From Spirochaetales bacterium (GTDB lineage Bacteria > Spirochaetota > Spirochaetia > Sphaerochaetales > Sphaerochaetaceae), in NCBI GenBank assembly GCA_017478205.1, contig JAFVDZ010000049.1, positions 1-47,669 of the forward strand: a stretch of 47,669 nt of DNA, written 5' to 3'. How positions within the stretch are numbered: position 1 is the first letter of the stretch; each line of letters starts with the position of its first letter. Below, in pieces: positions 6,792-45,527 of this stretch. The position numbers and the translations under genes were made by a program. Under the pieces are notes generated by a model that searched no databases, had not been told where the DNA came from, and was given only the letters and a program-made list of their open reading frames with translations.

Positions 6792-7466
6792 ATGGGTGAA
6801 ATCTTTCGTCTTGAGGGTGTTTCCAAGAGCTTTAAAAGTGGCTCTGAAAGCCTGCAGATTCTCAATAACATAAACCTTAGCCTTCCTGAAGGAGTCACAT
6901 TGGCTATTCAGGGAAAGAGTGGCTCTGGAAAGAGCACACTCCTTTCCATAATGGCTCTGATCGAGAAGCCTACAAGTGGTAAAGTGATATATGGTGGGAA
7001 GGATACAACGTGCATGAATGAAGCAGAAATTGCTGCTCTTCATAGGAAAACTATGGCCTTTGTGTTTCAAAACAGTCTTCTGCTTGAAGATTTCACAGCA
7101 CTTGAGAATGTAGCCCTCCCTTTGATGAACAACCACATCTCAAAGAAAGAAAGCTATGATATGGCAAGGGAAATCTTAGCTCGCGTAGGTCTTGAAGATA
7201 GGATTAGCCACAGGAGCACTGAACTCAGTGGTGGAGAAAGACAGCGTGTTGCACTTGCACGCGCACTTGTAACAAAGCCAGCTGTCCTCTTTGCAGATGA
7301 ACCTACTGGTGCACTTGATGAAGAGAGTGCAAAATTGGTCGAAGATCTGATCCTCAATACAGTTACTGAAAACAAACTCTCTCTAGTACTTGTCACACAT
7401 AACAGTGCCTTTGCAGCCCGCTGTGAAAAGGTCCTCACTCTTTCTTTCAAGGAGCTTCATGAATGA
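6792..7466 (+). CDS. ABC transporter ATPase, LolD/MacB type
   Basis: The nucleotide-binding subunit that powers the two flanking FtsX-type permeases. Motifs: Walker A G-K-S-G-S-G-K-S-T, Q-loop F-V-F-Q-N-S, signature L-S-G-G-E-R-Q-R-V-A-L-A-R-A-L, Walker B V-L-F-A-D-E-P-T-G-A-L-D, and the H-loop T-H-N. I place the start at 6792 because GGAGGT (6781-6786) sits just upstream and the protein then begins M-G-E-I-F-R-L-E-G-V-S-K-S-F; an in-frame ATG at 6768 lacks such support. The 224-residue length is normal for LolD. The stop overlaps the ATG of the second permease. Confidence 0.95.
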   Translation: MGEIFRLEGVSKSFKSGSESLQILNNINLSLPEGVTLAIQGKSGSGKSTLLSIMALIEKPTSGKVIYGGKDTTCMNEAEIAALHRKTMAFVFQNSLLLEDFTALENVALPLMNNHISKKESYDMAREILARVGLEDRISHRSTELSGGERQRVALARALVTKPAVLFADEPTGALDEESAKLVEDLILNTVTENKLSLVLVTHNSAFAARCEKVLTLSFKELHE

Positions 7467-8590
7467 ATGAAGCATTGAGACTATATGTTGAAAGAAAGAT
7501 AGGAAAGGGCCAGAAGATATCCTGGTGCCTGAAAAGCTATCTTTCTTGTCTGCTTGTACTGCTCGTTTCAGCAGCTCTTGCATTCACACTTGTATTTGTC
7601 TCTTCGATGACAAAGGCTATAGACAGTACACTTCAGAGTCTAGGTAGTGGAAGCATTGCTGTCTATGACACTCTCCCTGATGTAGAGATAGAGGGGAGTG
7701 TAAAGAAAACAGAGAGAGCAGGAGGTCTTCTCTATTCGAAGGATAAAAGTCAGATAGTCTACATAAAGGGCACAGAAGAAGATTACTTCACTCCTGATAT
7801 CTCTTCATTTATCAAGCTTGAAAGTGTCGAGAACAATACAGGCCTTAAAGGAATAAGGATAAGCAGGATAATGGCATCGCGGCTTGGTGCTCACTTGGGT
7901 GATAAACTTACAGTCATGCTATATGATACAGCACTTGGCAGAGTGAGACCTGTGCTTGTCTTTCTGGAGGGCACATATTCTTCTGGCTACAATGAGTTCG
8001 ATTCGAATCTTGCATATACATCAATCGATGTAACTGATGGTCAGATTGTGTATGAGATAAGGTGCGAGGATGTTGATAAAACTCTTTCCAAGTTGCTCTT
8101 GGAAGGTGCAGATGCTGTGAGTTACAAGAGCCTCTATAGGTCGATATATAACAACCTTGCAACTTCGAAGGATCTACTTCTTGTCATAACCATACTGGTT
8201 GCATTCCTTGCAGGCTTCTTTTCCATTTCAGTTTCCTATGAATATATCGAGAGAGATAGAAGGGATATAGGGGGACTATTGATGCTCGGATTCGAGAAAA
8301 GAAGCATCATAGCATCATACCGATATATCACACTAATCAGCGTAGGAATTTCTGCTCTTGTTGGAGAAGTAGTTGGAATATTGCTTTCTTTCCTTGTCTC
8401 TCCAATTCTTTCAAGCCTCGATATAACTCGCTATCCGGTGCTGCAGAACTATGTCCTTTCATTTGAAATCGTTATTCCATTCAAGACACTGAGCCTCCTT
8501 TTCATTGCTTTGATCCTGTCATCATACCTCTCGCTGAGGTTTGCACTCACAAGGAGAGTTTTCTCTTCTCTCTCCTCTGCCTTGAGATAA
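7463..8590 (+). CDS. FtsX/LolE-family ABC transporter permease
   Basis: The second permease of the operon, 375 residues. An N-terminal helix (about residues 25-50) is followed by an extracytoplasmic domain and three C-terminal helices (about residues 232-255, 280-310 and 340-362), the same FtsX layout as the gene at 5687. The coupling-type motif is R-D-I-G-G-L-L-M-L-G-F after the second helix. The start overlaps the ATPase stop (ATGA). It is the last gene of the operon. The combination with one LolD-like ATPase and a secreted protein fits lipoprotein sorting or envelope-stress export; the cargo cannot be read from sequence. Confidence 0.88.
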   Translation: MNEALRLYVERKIGKGQKISWCLKSYLSCLLVLLVSAALAFTLVFVSSMTKAIDSTLQSLGSGSIAVYDTLPDVEIEGSVKKTERAGGLLYSKDKSQIVYIKGTEEDYFTPDISSFIKLESVENNTGLKGIRISRIMASRLGAHLGDKLTVMLYDTALGRVRPVLVFLEGTYSSGYNEFDSNLAYTSIDVTDGQIVYEIRCEDVDKTLSKLLLEGADAVSYKSLYRSIYNNLATSKDLLLVITILVAFLAGFFSISVSYEYIERDRRDIGGLLMLGFEKRSIIASYRYITLISVGISALVGEVVGILLSFLVSPILSSLDITRYPVLQNYVLSFEIVIPFKTLSLLFIALILSSYLSLRFALTRRVFSSLSSALR

Positions 8591-11747: not shown

Positions 11748-12773
11748 ATGGAAAAAGAAGTTATTATAAACAACGAAAACGACTTAAAAGATAAAATCTA
11801 CATGATTCGTGGCGTTCAAGTCATGCTTGATAAGGATTTGGCTGAAATATATGGCTATTCTACAAAGGCCTTTAATCAGCAAGTAAAGAACAACATTGAA
11901 AAATTCGATGAAGAAGATTTGATGTTTCAATTAACCGAAGAAGAAACCAATAATTTGCGGTCAAATTTTTTGACCGCAAATATAAGCGTTATGTCACGAA
12001 GTCTTCCCTATGCTTTTACAGAACAGGGCGTTTACATGCTGATGACAGTACTAAAGGGTGAACTTGCCACAAAACAGAGCAAAGCTCTCGTACGTCTCTT
12101 TAAAAAAATGAAGGATTACGTTATAGAAAATCAGCAAGTTGTAAGTCAGCGTGATTTTTTACGACTTTCATTACAGACATCCGAAAATGCTCAGAATATA
12201 ATTGACTTCCGAAAACAGCTTGCAGAAATTGATGATAAAGTAGAAACAGTTGTAAGTAATCTAGGTGATATGATCAGAAAATCTGAACTGTCTCCTATTA
12301 TGTTAAATCTTGGAAAACCTGAAATTCCTGCAGGATGGCTTATTTTGAACGGTCAGCCTGTAGAAAGTGATATTGCTTACCAGCAGATTTATACACTGGC
12401 TAATAAAACTATTTATATAATAGATAACTATATTTCTCTGAAAACCCTGATTCTCTTTAAGAATGCAAAGCAGAATGTTGCAGTAACAATCTTCTCCGAT
12501 AACACAAATAACGGGCTTCATAAAGTTGAATATGATGATTTTTGCAAAGAATTTCCTGGTCTGAAAATTGACGTTAAAGAAGCAGGAAAGATTTTCCATG
12601 ATCGTTACATTATTCTTGATTACGGAACTCTTGACGAAAAAATCTACCACTGCGGTGCCAGCTCAAAAGATGGAGGTAGAAAAGTAACAACCATCACTCT
12701 TACAGATGATACTTCTGTTTATAGTGGTCTGATTGCACAATTGTTAAAGAATAAGCCGTTGGTTTTGAAATAG
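11748..12773 (+). CDS. ORF6N-domain protein with PLD-like C-terminus
   Basis: A 341-residue protein. Residues ~8-95 form an ORF6N DNA-binding domain (I-R-G-V-Q-V-M-L-D-K-D-L-A-E-I-Y-G, F-T-E-Q-G-V-Y-M-L). A coiled-coil linker follows (~125-185). The C-terminal third has a phospholipase-D-like pattern: I-Y-I-I-D-N-Y-I-S near residue 222 and H-D-R-Y-I-I-L-D followed by G-A-S-S-K-D-G-G. Such genes often sit inside type I restriction-modification loci, as here, between hsdM and hsdS remnants. AGGGG lies upstream of the ATG. Codon use is visibly more AT-rich than the neighbours, supporting transfer. It is intact, though its role (regulatory or abortive-infection-like) is unknown. Confidence 0.85.
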   Translation: MEKEVIINNENDLKDKIYMIRGVQVMLDKDLAEIYGYSTKAFNQQVKNNIEKFDEEDLMFQLTEEETNNLRSNFLTANISVMSRSLPYAFTEQGVYMLMTVLKGELATKQSKALVRLFKKMKDYVIENQQVVSQRDFLRLSLQTSENAQNIIDFRKQLAEIDDKVETVVSNLGDMIRKSELSPIMLNLGKPEIPAGWLILNGQPVESDIAYQQIYTLANKTIYIIDNYISLKTLILFKNAKQNVAVTIFSDNTNNGLHKVEYDDFCKEFPGLKIDVKEAGKIFHDRYIILDYGTLDEKIYHCGASSKDGGRKVTTITLTDDTSVYSGLIAQLLKNKPLVLK

Positions 12774-42367: not shown

Positions 42368-44110
42368 TTAGTCAATTTCAAGTGGCTCTAACTTGAATTT
42401 ACTTACATTGAAAAGTCCAAGGTCTGTAACCTTGACTTCCGGAATTACAGGAAGTGCCATGAAACAGAGTGTCATGAATGGGTCGATATCTGTCTTGTCA
42501 GATATTTCCTTGACTGCAATCTCATGAAGCTCATCGAGCTTTTCCTTCACGTAATCCAGAGGCTTATCTGTCATGAGGCCTGCAATCTCATGCTGGAGAG
42601 AGCCAAGTAGCTTGCCATCCTTTACTACTGTGATACCACCACCAAGCTTTACAAGCTCCTGAACAGCGAGAAGCATCTCTTCGTTCGAAGATCCAACTAC
42701 AATTATGTTGTGTGAGTCATGAGCAACTGAGGTTGCAACTGCACCTCTCTTCATGCCGTAGCCTCTTATGAGAGCAAGACCGACATTTCCAGTTCCATGG
42801 TGGCGTTCAATAACAGCAACCTTGAGAAGATCGACATTCTCATCATGGATGAAATCGCCCTCACTATCTCTCTTGATGTATGCATCCTCTTCCTTTGTTA
42901 CAACTCCACCAGGAAGAATCCTGATAACTCTGACATGGTCACTCTTTAAATGGAGCTTGAAGATGTCCTTATCAAGTTTCTTTACATTCATCATGCCTGC
43001 AACCTTTACAAGAGGGGCATGTGGTGTCTTTTTAAGTATCTTGCCATTCTCTGCAACCAGGTTGCCTTTGATGTAGACAGCTAGTGGATCTAGTTTGGTA
43101 AGGGAATCTGTGAGGAAGCAATCCGCTCTCAAGCCTGGTGCGATAGCACCTCTATCTTCGAGCTTGTAGCAGGTTGCTGCATTCAAAGATGCCATGCTTA
43201 TTGCATAAAGAGGGTCAAGACCATGTTCGATTGCCAACTTGATACCATTGCTGACATGGCCAAGAGTTGTGATTGTCTGTGGCTGGCAGTCGTCAGTACA
43301 GAAGAGGATTCTATTTGAGTTCTCTTTTGTTACAGCTGGAAGCAATCCAAGAACATTCTTGCAAGCTGTTCCCTCTCTGAGCATTACATAGACGCCTCTT
43401 CTGACTCTTTCATGGAGGTCTTCAGGAGTCTCGCACTCATGGTCTGTTGTGATTCTTGCTGCAGTATAGGCATCGAGTGCGTTTCCAACGATTCCTGGGC
43501 TGTGGCCATCTATGTTCTTTCCTCTCTTGTATGCAGTCTCGAGTTTATCGAGAACCTTCTGATCGTTGAAGAAGAGACCTGGATAGTTCATCATCTCACC
43601 AAGACCAAGGATGCGCTCATCATCGATGATTTTCTCTATATCCTCTGCAAGCAATACTGCACCAGCATTCTCGAAATCTGTTGCAGGTACACAGGAAGGG
43701 AACATAAAGAAAATGGATAGGGGAGCATTCCTTGCAGAGGATAGCATATAGCGCATGCCATCTAGGCCTGCTACATTGCAGATTTCATGAGGATCTGCAA
43801 CTACAGTTGTCGTGCCTCTTGGAACAACTGCATCGGAAAACTCTGATGGTGAAAGGTGACTGGATTCGATATGGCAGTGTGCGTCGATAAATCCTGGAAC
43901 GAGGTATTTTCCATCACAATCTACATACTTTTCTGCCTTGATTACATCATTTCCACCGCAAGAACAGAAGTATCCGTCCTTGATGAAAACATCTCCTTTG
44001 AATACTTCCTTATTGTATACGTCAACAATTTGGACATTCTGTAGACACAAATCTGCTTTTTTTCTTCCCATATTCACGTCTACAAGAGTTTTCGTCAGTT
44101 CCTTATTCAT
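42368..44110 (-). CDS. ade: Adenine deaminase
   Basis: Converts adenine to hypoxanthine and ammonia for purine salvage. The 580-residue amidohydrolase is the standard bacterial Ade length. Motifs: F-I-D-A-H-C-H-I-E-S-S-H-L-S-P (metal histidines), R-G-T-T-T-V-V-A-D-P-H-E-I-C-N-V, G-H-S-P-G, D-H-E-C and F-C-T-D-D-C-Q-P. The C-terminal domain has S-V-A-H-D-S-H-N-I-I-V-V-G. GGGAGG lies 5 bases before the ATG. It is divergent from the purine permease azgA, and the two share a symmetric promoter region. Confidence 0.97.
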   Translation of the reverse strand: MNKELTKTLVDVNMGRKKADLCLQNVQIVDVYNKEVFKGDVFIKDGYFCSCGGNDVIKAEKYVDCDGKYLVPGFIDAHCHIESSHLSPSEFSDAVVPRGTTTVVADPHEICNVAGLDGMRYMLSSARNAPLSIFFMFPSCVPATDFENAGAVLLAEDIEKIIDDERILGLGEMMNYPGLFFNDQKVLDKLETAYKRGKNIDGHSPGIVGNALDAYTAARITTDHECETPEDLHERVRRGVYVMLREGTACKNVLGLLPAVTKENSNRILFCTDDCQPQTITTLGHVSNGIKLAIEHGLDPLYAISMASLNAATCYKLEDRGAIAPGLRADCFLTDSLTKLDPLAVYIKGNLVAENGKILKKTPHAPLVKVAGMMNVKKLDKDIFKLHLKSDHVRVIRILPGGVVTKEEDAYIKRDSEGDFIHDENVDLLKVAVIERHHGTGNVGLALIRGYGMKRGAVATSVAHDSHNIIVVGSSNEEMLLAVQELVKLGGGITVVKDGKLLGSLQHEIAGLMTDKPLDYVKEKLDELHEIAVKEISDKTDIDPFMTLCFMALPVIPEVKVTDLGLFNVSKFKLEPLEID

Positions 44111-44142: not shown

Positions 44143-44193
44143 CAGTTAAATTTTATTGTTGCAATTTGTTGCGAGTCAATTAAAATTTAACTG
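44143..44193. promoter_or_regulatory. Divergent ade/azgA promoter with 13-bp inverted repeat
   Basis: CAGTTAAATTTTA (44143-44155) and TAAAATTTAACTG (44181-44193) form a perfect 13-bp inverted repeat 25 bases apart. Each arm contains a TAAAAT -10. For ade, TTGACT (44179-44174), 18 bp, TAAAAT (44155-44150). For azgA, TTGCAA (44159-44164), 16 bp, TAAAAT (44181-44186). The two promoters therefore overlap back to back, and a dimeric regulator on the repeat could control both purine genes together. Confidence 0.65.
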
Positions 44194-44228: not shown

Positions 44229-45527
44229 ATGGAAAAGTTTTTCAAACTGAAAGAAAGACAGACCAACGTCAAGACCGAGATTATGGCCGGTATCACGACC
44301 TTCTTGGCTATGGCCTACATTCTTGCTGTAAACCCAGGTATCCTTTCTGCTGCAGGAATGGATTTTGGTTCAGTCTTTACAGCAACCGCGCTTGCATCTG
44401 CAGTAGCTACTTTGGTAATGGCATTCTATGCTAACTTGCCATTTGCTCTAGCTCCAGGTATGGGACTCAACGCTTTCCTTGCCTACACAGTTGTACTCGG
44501 AATGGGTTACGATTGGACTTTTGCTCTTACTGCAGTCTTCCTTGAAGGTATCATCTTCATCGCTTTGACAATCTTCAATGTAAGAGAAGCTGTTGTAAAC
44601 AGTATTCCTGATGCACTGAAAAAAGCAATCAGCGTAGGTATTGGCTTCTTCATTGCCTTCATTGGTATGCAGAATGCTGGCATCATCGTTGATGGCGCAA
44701 CACTTGTAGATCTCGGTGCTATCTGTACACCAGGACCAGCTATGGTTGCAATCATTGGCCTCATCATTACTATTGTTCTCCTTTGTATGAATGTTAAGGG
44801 TGCTGTACTTCTTGGTATCGCTCTCACAACAATCATCGGTATTCCTTTTGGAGTAACACAGTATAATGGCGGTTCTTTCTTGCCTCCATCACTTGCACCA
44901 ACAATTGGTAAGTGTTTTGCTTTTGGCGAAATTGCTGCTCACCCACTCGATTTCATCGTAGTAATGTTCTCCTTCCTCTTTGTCGATATGTTCGATACAG
45001 TAGGTACACTCATCGGATGTGCTCAGAAGTCTAACCTCATCCAGAAAGATGGAACAATTACAAATTGTAAGGAAGCTCTCTTTGCAGACGCAATCGGAAC
45101 AACCTTCGGTGCTGTCGTTGGTACATCTACTGTTACAACATTCGTCGAATCCTCAACAGGCGTTGCAGAGGGTGGTAGATCCGGTCTTACAGCTTTGACT
45201 GTAGCAGTTCTCTTCCTCCTCTCTCTCTTCCTCAGCCCACTCTTCTTGGCTATCCCATCCGCAGCAACCGCTCCAGCTCTCATTCTGGTAGGTTTCTACA
45301 TGATGGAACCAGTAAATGGTGTCGATTGGAAGGATCCATCAGAAGGCATTCCAGCATTCCTGTGTATCGCATTCATGGCATTCGCTTACTCAATCAGTAC
45401 CGGTATCATGATGGGTGTTATCTCTTACGTTATTGTCAAGCTCGCTAAGAGAGAATATAACAAGATCACACCTACAACTATCGTCCTCTTCGTTGTCTTC
45501 CTTATCTATCTCATCTTGAAGCACTAA
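44229..45527 (+). CDS. Adenine/guanine/hypoxanthine permease, AzgA-type NCS2
   Basis: A 432-residue inner-membrane proton:purine symporter. The N-terminus F-K-L-K-E-R-Q-T-N-V-K-T-E-I-M-A-G-I-T-T matches the AzgA (COG2252) branch. A-M-A-Y-I-L-A-V-N-P and A-P-G-M-G-L-N-A-F are family motifs, and F-V-D-M-F-D-T-V-G-T and G-T-S-T-V-T-T-F-V-E-S-S-T-G-V lie in the transport core. About 12-13 helices. AAGGAG (44217-44222) precedes the ATG. Divergent from ade: import of adenine followed by deamination is a clear functional pair. Confidence 0.95.
   Translation: MEKFFKLKERQTNVKTEIMAGITTFLAMAYILAVNPGILSAAGMDFGSVFTATALASAVATLVMAFYANLPFALAPGMGLNAFLAYTVVLGMGYDWTFALTAVFLEGIIFIALTIFNVREAVVNSIPDALKKAISVGIGFFIAFIGMQNAGIIVDGATLVDLGAICTPGPAMVAIIGLIITIVLLCMNVKGAVLLGIALTTIIGIPFGVTQYNGGSFLPPSLAPTIGKCFAFGEIAAHPLDFIVVMFSFLFVDMFDTVGTLIGCAQKSNLIQKDGTITNCKEALFADAIGTTFGAVVGTSTVTTFVESSTGVAEGGRSGLTALTVAVLFLLSLFLSPLFLAIPSAATAPALILVGFYMMEPVNGVDWKDPSEGIPAFLCIAFMAFAYSISTGIMMGVISYVIVKLAKREYNKITPTTIVLFVVFLIYLILKH

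Follow-up and report, generated by a model that had tools for sequence, protein, structure and literature searches.

The uptake, salvage or breakdown of purines is governed by LacI-type PurR, Bacillus PurR and purine riboswitches, and the protein families and sites of the two PurR types differ from those of the candidate regulator that is described here. The reductive anaerobic urate pathway of E. coli involves XdhD, YgfK, SsnA, HyuA, YgeW, YqeA, YgeY and YgeX, and the available part of its description names no regulator (PMC12507026). The WYL regulators DriD, PafBC, SiwR, BrxR and CapW control the DNA-damage response or phage defence (PMC10693628), and DriD is described as binding a 20-bp pseudo-palindrome (PMC12340889). 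DriD acts as a homodimeric activator that is switched on by single-stranded DNA. The open-licence literature that was searched named no spirochaete regulator for a ygfK-type pathway, which is weak evidence of absence given its limited coverage, and yielded no WYL protein that controls purine catabolism through a direct repeat. The enzymes of the urate pathway and the WYL regulators are already known; the combination of a WYL protein, purine genes and a direct repeat is the new part, in that it was not found in the literature searched. In this study, we propose that positions 44143-44193 are probably a divergent promoter with an operator (44156-44172) of a purine-degradation regulon, of which a WYL protein is the likely regulator.

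The window, i.e., the whole 47.7-kb stretch of DNA that was analysed, comes from a gut spirochaete and carries the divergent genes ade and azgA, which are separated by a gap of 118 nt (Table 1). The gene names that were proposed in the first-pass annotation are upheld by the family matches, TIGR01178 for the deaminase and the solved adenine/guanine permeases AZG1 and AZG2 (best E 2.6e-68) for the permease. In all 16 genomes of the genus, ade lies beside a divergent azgA. G003 additionally has a second adenine deaminase-like gene (L017, G003:C6:2543-4270), which is 36% identical and has no azgA adjacent to it. A search of Rfam around the gap gave no match even at E up to 1, which agrees with the earlier remark that no purine riboswitch is visible and sets the leaders of this locus apart from those with purine riboswitches. 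The ade promoter (TTGACT-18-TAAAAT) scored 10/12 in the consensus scan, and its 18-nt spacer, CGCAACAAATTGCAACAA, corresponds to the operator. The azgA promoter (TTGCAA-16-TAAAAT) scored 9/12 and is weaker than that of ade; because three promoter-like sites were found in the region compared to the 1.6 that were expected, it should be considered only a consensus match.

Table 1. Position of the genes, promoter boxes and repeats in and around the ade/azgA gap
Feature	Position	Strand	Basis or description
ade, adenine deaminase	42368..44110	-	TIGR01178, 603.6 bits (cut-off 472.5)
Left arm of the 13-bp inverted repeat	44143..44155		CAGTTAAATTTTA; includes the ade -10; perfect pairing
ade -10 box TAAAAT	44150..44155	-	Consensus scan; kept in G005 and G003
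Operator TTGTTGC-N3-TTGTTGC	44156..44172	+	Direct repeat with a 10-bp period; TGTTGC-N5-GTTGC site family
Putative azgA -35 box TTGCAA (weak)	44159..44164	+	Consensus scan; inside the operator
ade -35 box TTGACT	44174..44179	-	Consensus scan; kept in G005 and G003
Right arm of the 13-bp inverted repeat	44181..44193		TAAAATTTAACTG; includes the putative azgA -10; perfect pairing
Putative azgA -10 box TAAAAT (weak)	44181..44186	+	Consensus scan
azgA-type adenine/guanine permease	44229..45527	+	PF00860; AZG1 chain 8irl, E 2.6e-68

The word TTGTTGC had been reported to occur twice between the two -10 regions, and it does so at 44156-44172, where the pair occupies the space between the -35 and the -10 of ade and also overlaps the weak promoter of azgA. 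This pair is the single GTTGC-N5-GTTGC on either strand of the window. The ade -35, the operator and the ade -10 are conserved across the three closest species (this genome, G005 and G003); G003 retains TTTTATTGTTGCA..TTGTTGC.AGTCAA, in which the -10 box of ade is followed by the tandem repeat and then by the -35 box. Among the 16 ade/azgA gaps of the genus, nine contain the tandem GTTGC-N5-GTTGC, which in six of them (G002, G007 and G012-G015) lies behind the azgA -10; two (G008 and G009) contain an inverted variant of it, and five (G001, G004, G006, G010 and G011) contain neither form. In the other genera, a site with at least 10 of 11 bases was found upstream of azgA in 6/29 loci. A distinct word, TTCTGTAC (mostly TTTTTCTGTAC), was seen by eye before the -10 in 13 of these 29 upstream regions (L355-L376), and it is possibly the site of another regulator or a -35 variant.

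Further analysis gave ten sites of the form TGTTGC-N5-GTTGC in this genome. The 16 genomes of the genus contain 98 such sites compared to eight for the reversed pattern that served as the control, and the 119 genomes of the family contain 649 compared to 64; in 149 other genomes of the phylum, there were 122 sites and 64 controls, both of which were summed by hand. A profile that was based on 122 sites reads TTGTTGC[A/G]NNTTGTTGCA, i.e., two copies of TTGTTGCA that are one helical turn apart and have no dyad. The GTTGC pairs in the ygfK loci have only the 5-bp spacing (53/60), while those at the promoter of the candidate regulator gene have a spacing of 5 or 6 bp (22/79 compared to 12/1580 random windows).

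The 98 sites of the genus were reduced to 92 by removing identical contexts, the flanks were fetched and the genes were assigned, with one member of each gene family behind the sites being checked against Pfam or NCBIfam. The first-pass annotation had suggested searching for the repeat upstream of other purine genes; the inverted repeat in its exact form was found only at this locus among the 16 genus genomes, whereas the tandem element was found before such genes, with 62 of the 92 sites preceding ygfK (16), arcC (13), ygeW (11), the regulator gene (9), ade/azgA (6), ygeY (4) or ygeX (3). Further sites lie at a xanthine dehydrogenase-type molybdopterin subunit (4), Xan_ur permeases (2) and Bmp nucleoside-binding proteins (2), and the remaining ones are before other or unassigned genes or within genes. 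Perfect sites at ygfK were present in all 16 genus genomes and in 53 of the 60 ygfK regions that were fetched from other genera. The same motif is therefore found above chance before functionally linked genes. Since the word is shared with many genes for the anaerobic breakdown of urate and purines in the relatives, it most likely serves as the docking site for a single, hitherto undescribed switch, and the repeat is best read as the operator of a purine-degradation regulon in one spirochaete family. Judging by the genes behind the sites, this regulon would comprise ygfK, ygeW, ygeY, ygeX, arcC and xdh, genes of purine transport, ade/azgA and also the gene of the regulator. Compared to the pathway described in E. 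coli (PMC12507026), the same YgfK, YgeW, YgeX, YgeY, carbamate kinase and molybdopterin dehydrogenase subunit are found behind the sites; in the genome studied here, however, they are spread across several contigs, a separate site accompanies each of them, and ade/azgA is an additional member of the set.

Genes outside of purine breakdown also carry the site: glutamine synthetase III (four sites: L096, L133, L144 and L155), the branched-chain amino acid carrier brnQ (two: L064 and L109) and a DUF1015 gene (two: L063 and L112), which is divergent from a small putative thiN gene. These sites hint at nitrogen control. A TetR-type regulator gene of G001 (L091, G001:C8) also has a perfect site upstream.

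The probable regulator of the operator is a family-specific HTH-WYL-WCX protein of 320 aa (G000:C46:77007-77966, outside the window), which would bind the repeat. It has an N-terminal helix-turn-helix (PF08279 HTH_11, 29.2 bits, cut-off 25) and a WCX extension (PF25583, 31.3 bits, cut-off 23.9; residues 241-314 are matched by the DriD chains). Residues 135-222 of the predicted model superimpose on the WYL Sm-like fold of CapW (9c5g; Z 11.8, rmsd 2.4, 82 residues); since Pfam gave no WYL match at E 0.001, the WYL domain is assigned by fold alone. The best Foldseek matches of the predicted fold were DriD, PafBC, BrxR and CapW, the match to DriD having an E of 2.7e-11 yet low TM-scores (0.23), and the model is poor towards its N-terminus, with a block pLDDT of 38-60 up to residue 140. 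According to this model, the candidate would share with DriD, PafBC, SiwR, BrxR and CapW a winged HTH, a helical bundle, the WYL Sm-like domain and the WCX, and it would differ from them in its head-to-tail repeat and its purine genes. One orthologue is present in each of the 16 genus genomes, and residues 1-44 are identical among the nine aligned sequences. The protein was found in 106 of the 119 family genomes and in none of the 149 other genomes of the phylum.

A site with at least 10 of 11 bases lies upstream of the regulator gene in 13/16 genus loci and in 12/15 loci of other genera. The same was observed for 49 of 79 named loci compared to 20 of 1580 random windows; these loci, which include Sphaerochaeta, Ornithospirochaeta and Sphaerochaetaceae or Spirochaetales bins, were 80 before L329 was dropped for having no upstream sequence, and their species overlap with those of the 16 and 15 loci above. 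At this promoter (L272-L351), TGGTGC or TGTTTC often takes the place of TGTTGC as the second half-site, and in some species a 6-bp spacing is found in place of the 5-bp one.

The position of the site relative to the promoter varies with the gene. In the ygfK sequences of other genera, it lies upstream of the -35, with 7-11 nt between its end and the box in 49/52 and 18-19 nt, one turn further, in the remaining 3/52; at ygeW, ygeY and xdh, it is also upstream of the -35. At arcC, it overlaps the -35 and the -10 is TG-extended, at ade and brnQ the spacer between the two boxes is taken up by it, and the site lies behind the -10 at the regulator gene, at ygeX and DUF1015, and at the azgA of several species. 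A pseudo-palindrome that overlaps the -35 at a fixed distance from the -10, as in DriD, is not what these sites look like; if the WYL protein binds them, it would do so at a direct repeat in varied positions. Judging from position only, a site in the spacer or behind the -10 fits repression and one upstream of the -35 (ygfK, ygeW, ygeY and xdh) more probably fits activation, although other interpretations are conceivable given how strong the -35 of ygfK is.

Binding by the WYL protein, its signal and the choice between repression and activation are what we infer from this arrangement. The WYL protein would sit between the -35 and the -10 of ade and on the putative -35 of azgA. As it would cover both the ade spacer and the azgA -35, the two promoters would probably be shut together, and a purine or nitrogen signal that alters the binding would open them; at ygfK, ygeW, ygeY and xdh, the protein upstream of the -35 would more probably activate. 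The suggestion that control is exerted at the DNA level, by one regulator for both divergent genes, is supported. That one bound protein represses ade and azgA simultaneously is the likeliest outcome, which we favour slightly. Several points count against the proposal as a whole: the tandem site is present in only 9/16 of the gaps in the genus and 6/29 of the azgA loci in other genera, a regulator that represses some genes of a pathway and activates others is not the simplest scheme, and characterised WYL regulators such as DriD are described as binding a pseudo-palindrome and not a direct repeat (PMC12340889).

It is less likely, but deserves attention, that the regulator activates ade/azgA by contacting RNA polymerase within the promoter. 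PafBC and SiwR are described as working in this way at the -26 region (PMC10693628), the DriD sites overlap the -35 (PMC12340889) and so do the arcC sites, which are combined with the TG-extended -10. However, the ade promoter has good boxes, TTGACT and TAAAAT, and in the six genus genomes mentioned above the site behind the azgA -10 is in the position of a repressor.

The site, the regulon, their conservation and the co-occurrence with the regulator are the results of computation. Outside the genus, a perfect ygfK site was present in 46 of 48 genomes with the regulator compared to 7 of 12 without it, in a non-random sample of 60 regions that comprised all 12 regulator-less genomes with ygfK and 48 others (Fisher P 0.0024 by genome and 2e-5 when comparing the regulator-less genera, with relatedness being ignored). 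The ygfK site was missing in three of the four genera in which the regulator was not found. Correspondingly, the five ygfK regions that lack both the site and the regulator all belong to genera g7, g12 and g13, and the gene was found in none of the examined genomes of these genera.

These observations also bear on the doubtful alternative that, with the operator and the regulon themselves being real, the repeat is bound by a different transcription factor and the WYL gene is only one of its targets. Seven genomes (G018, G033, G047, G065, G081, G102 and G110) hold the ygfK site without a match to the regulator, G030 has the regulator gene but the site nowhere in its genome, the ygfK of G024 lacks the site despite the presence of the gene, and the TetR-type gene of G001 carries a site as well. 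On the other hand, the seven genomes are incomplete bins (68-96% complete), six of which, i.e., all except G018, have genus mates that carry the regulator gene. Moreover, the ygfK regions that lack both are confined to the three genera named above, and the site at the WYL gene's own promoter is widespread. The WYL protein is the probable regulator.

The first-pass annotation had suggested that both genes could be switched through an inverted repeat, the arms of which flank the TTGTTGC pair. The 13-bp repeat is exact at 44143-44193, with 13 of 13 pairs and 25 nt between the arms, and TAAAAT is present within each arm. As was claimed, the TTGACT of ade lies between the arms; the TTGCAA of azgA does too, but it is the weak consensus match discussed above. 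When the 118-nt gap was shuffled 2000 times with its dinucleotides preserved, the longest perfect inverted repeat had 12 bp and none reached 13 bp, and hence the repeat exceeds what the composition of the gap would give. The window contains two more perfect inverted repeats (11953-11981 and 7439-7499), which are 12-13 bp long and have spacers of up to 60 nt. Matches to the arm sequence elsewhere in the window, allowing two mismatches, numbered four compared to the 2.2 that were expected.

It is very unlikely that both genes are switched by the inverted repeat itself, be it as the operator or by extrusion of a cruciform. In its favour are the perfect pairing that the shuffles did not reach and the sister G005 (Ade 93% identical), in which 12 pairs are kept and one G-C pair became A-T by a change on both sides. 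However, the exact form was found in only one of the 16 genus genomes, the studied one, and nowhere else in its own genome. In G003 (Ade 84% identical), it is gone, with the right arm altered, although the tandem repeat and the ade boxes persist. The lack of conservation in the related ade/azgA gaps, which the first-pass annotation had named as a refutation, speaks against the repeat as the regulatory element, and its arms coincide with two AT-rich -10 regions. For the proposed cruciform switching no support was found, and the 25-nt loop and the AT arms would make extrusion improbable. The inverted repeat is best seen as a local product of two facing AT-rich -10 regions that was kept between two sister species. 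Finally, it is hardly credible that the tandem repeat is no protein site at all but a feature of promoters or of base composition that is widespread in these genomes: it often overlaps or flanks the -35 and -10 boxes, but it lies upstream of, between and behind them on either strand, clusters at purine genes and is approximately tenfold commoner than the reversed pattern in the family and approximately twofold commoner outside it.

More tentatively, with somewhat less than even confidence, we suggest that in this family a WYL factor has moved from the control of DNA damage and defence to metabolism, where it would bind head-to-tail TTGTTGC, sense a purine or a nucleotide, repress its own gene and ade/azgA, and activate the reductive urate pathway family-wide. 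Urate-degrading gut anaerobes are relevant to gout (PMC12507026). With a 17-bp operator and one candidate protein, the control of the urate pathway becomes directly testable and, if the proposal is true, WYL regulators would reach beyond DNA damage and phage defence, onto a direct-repeat operator.
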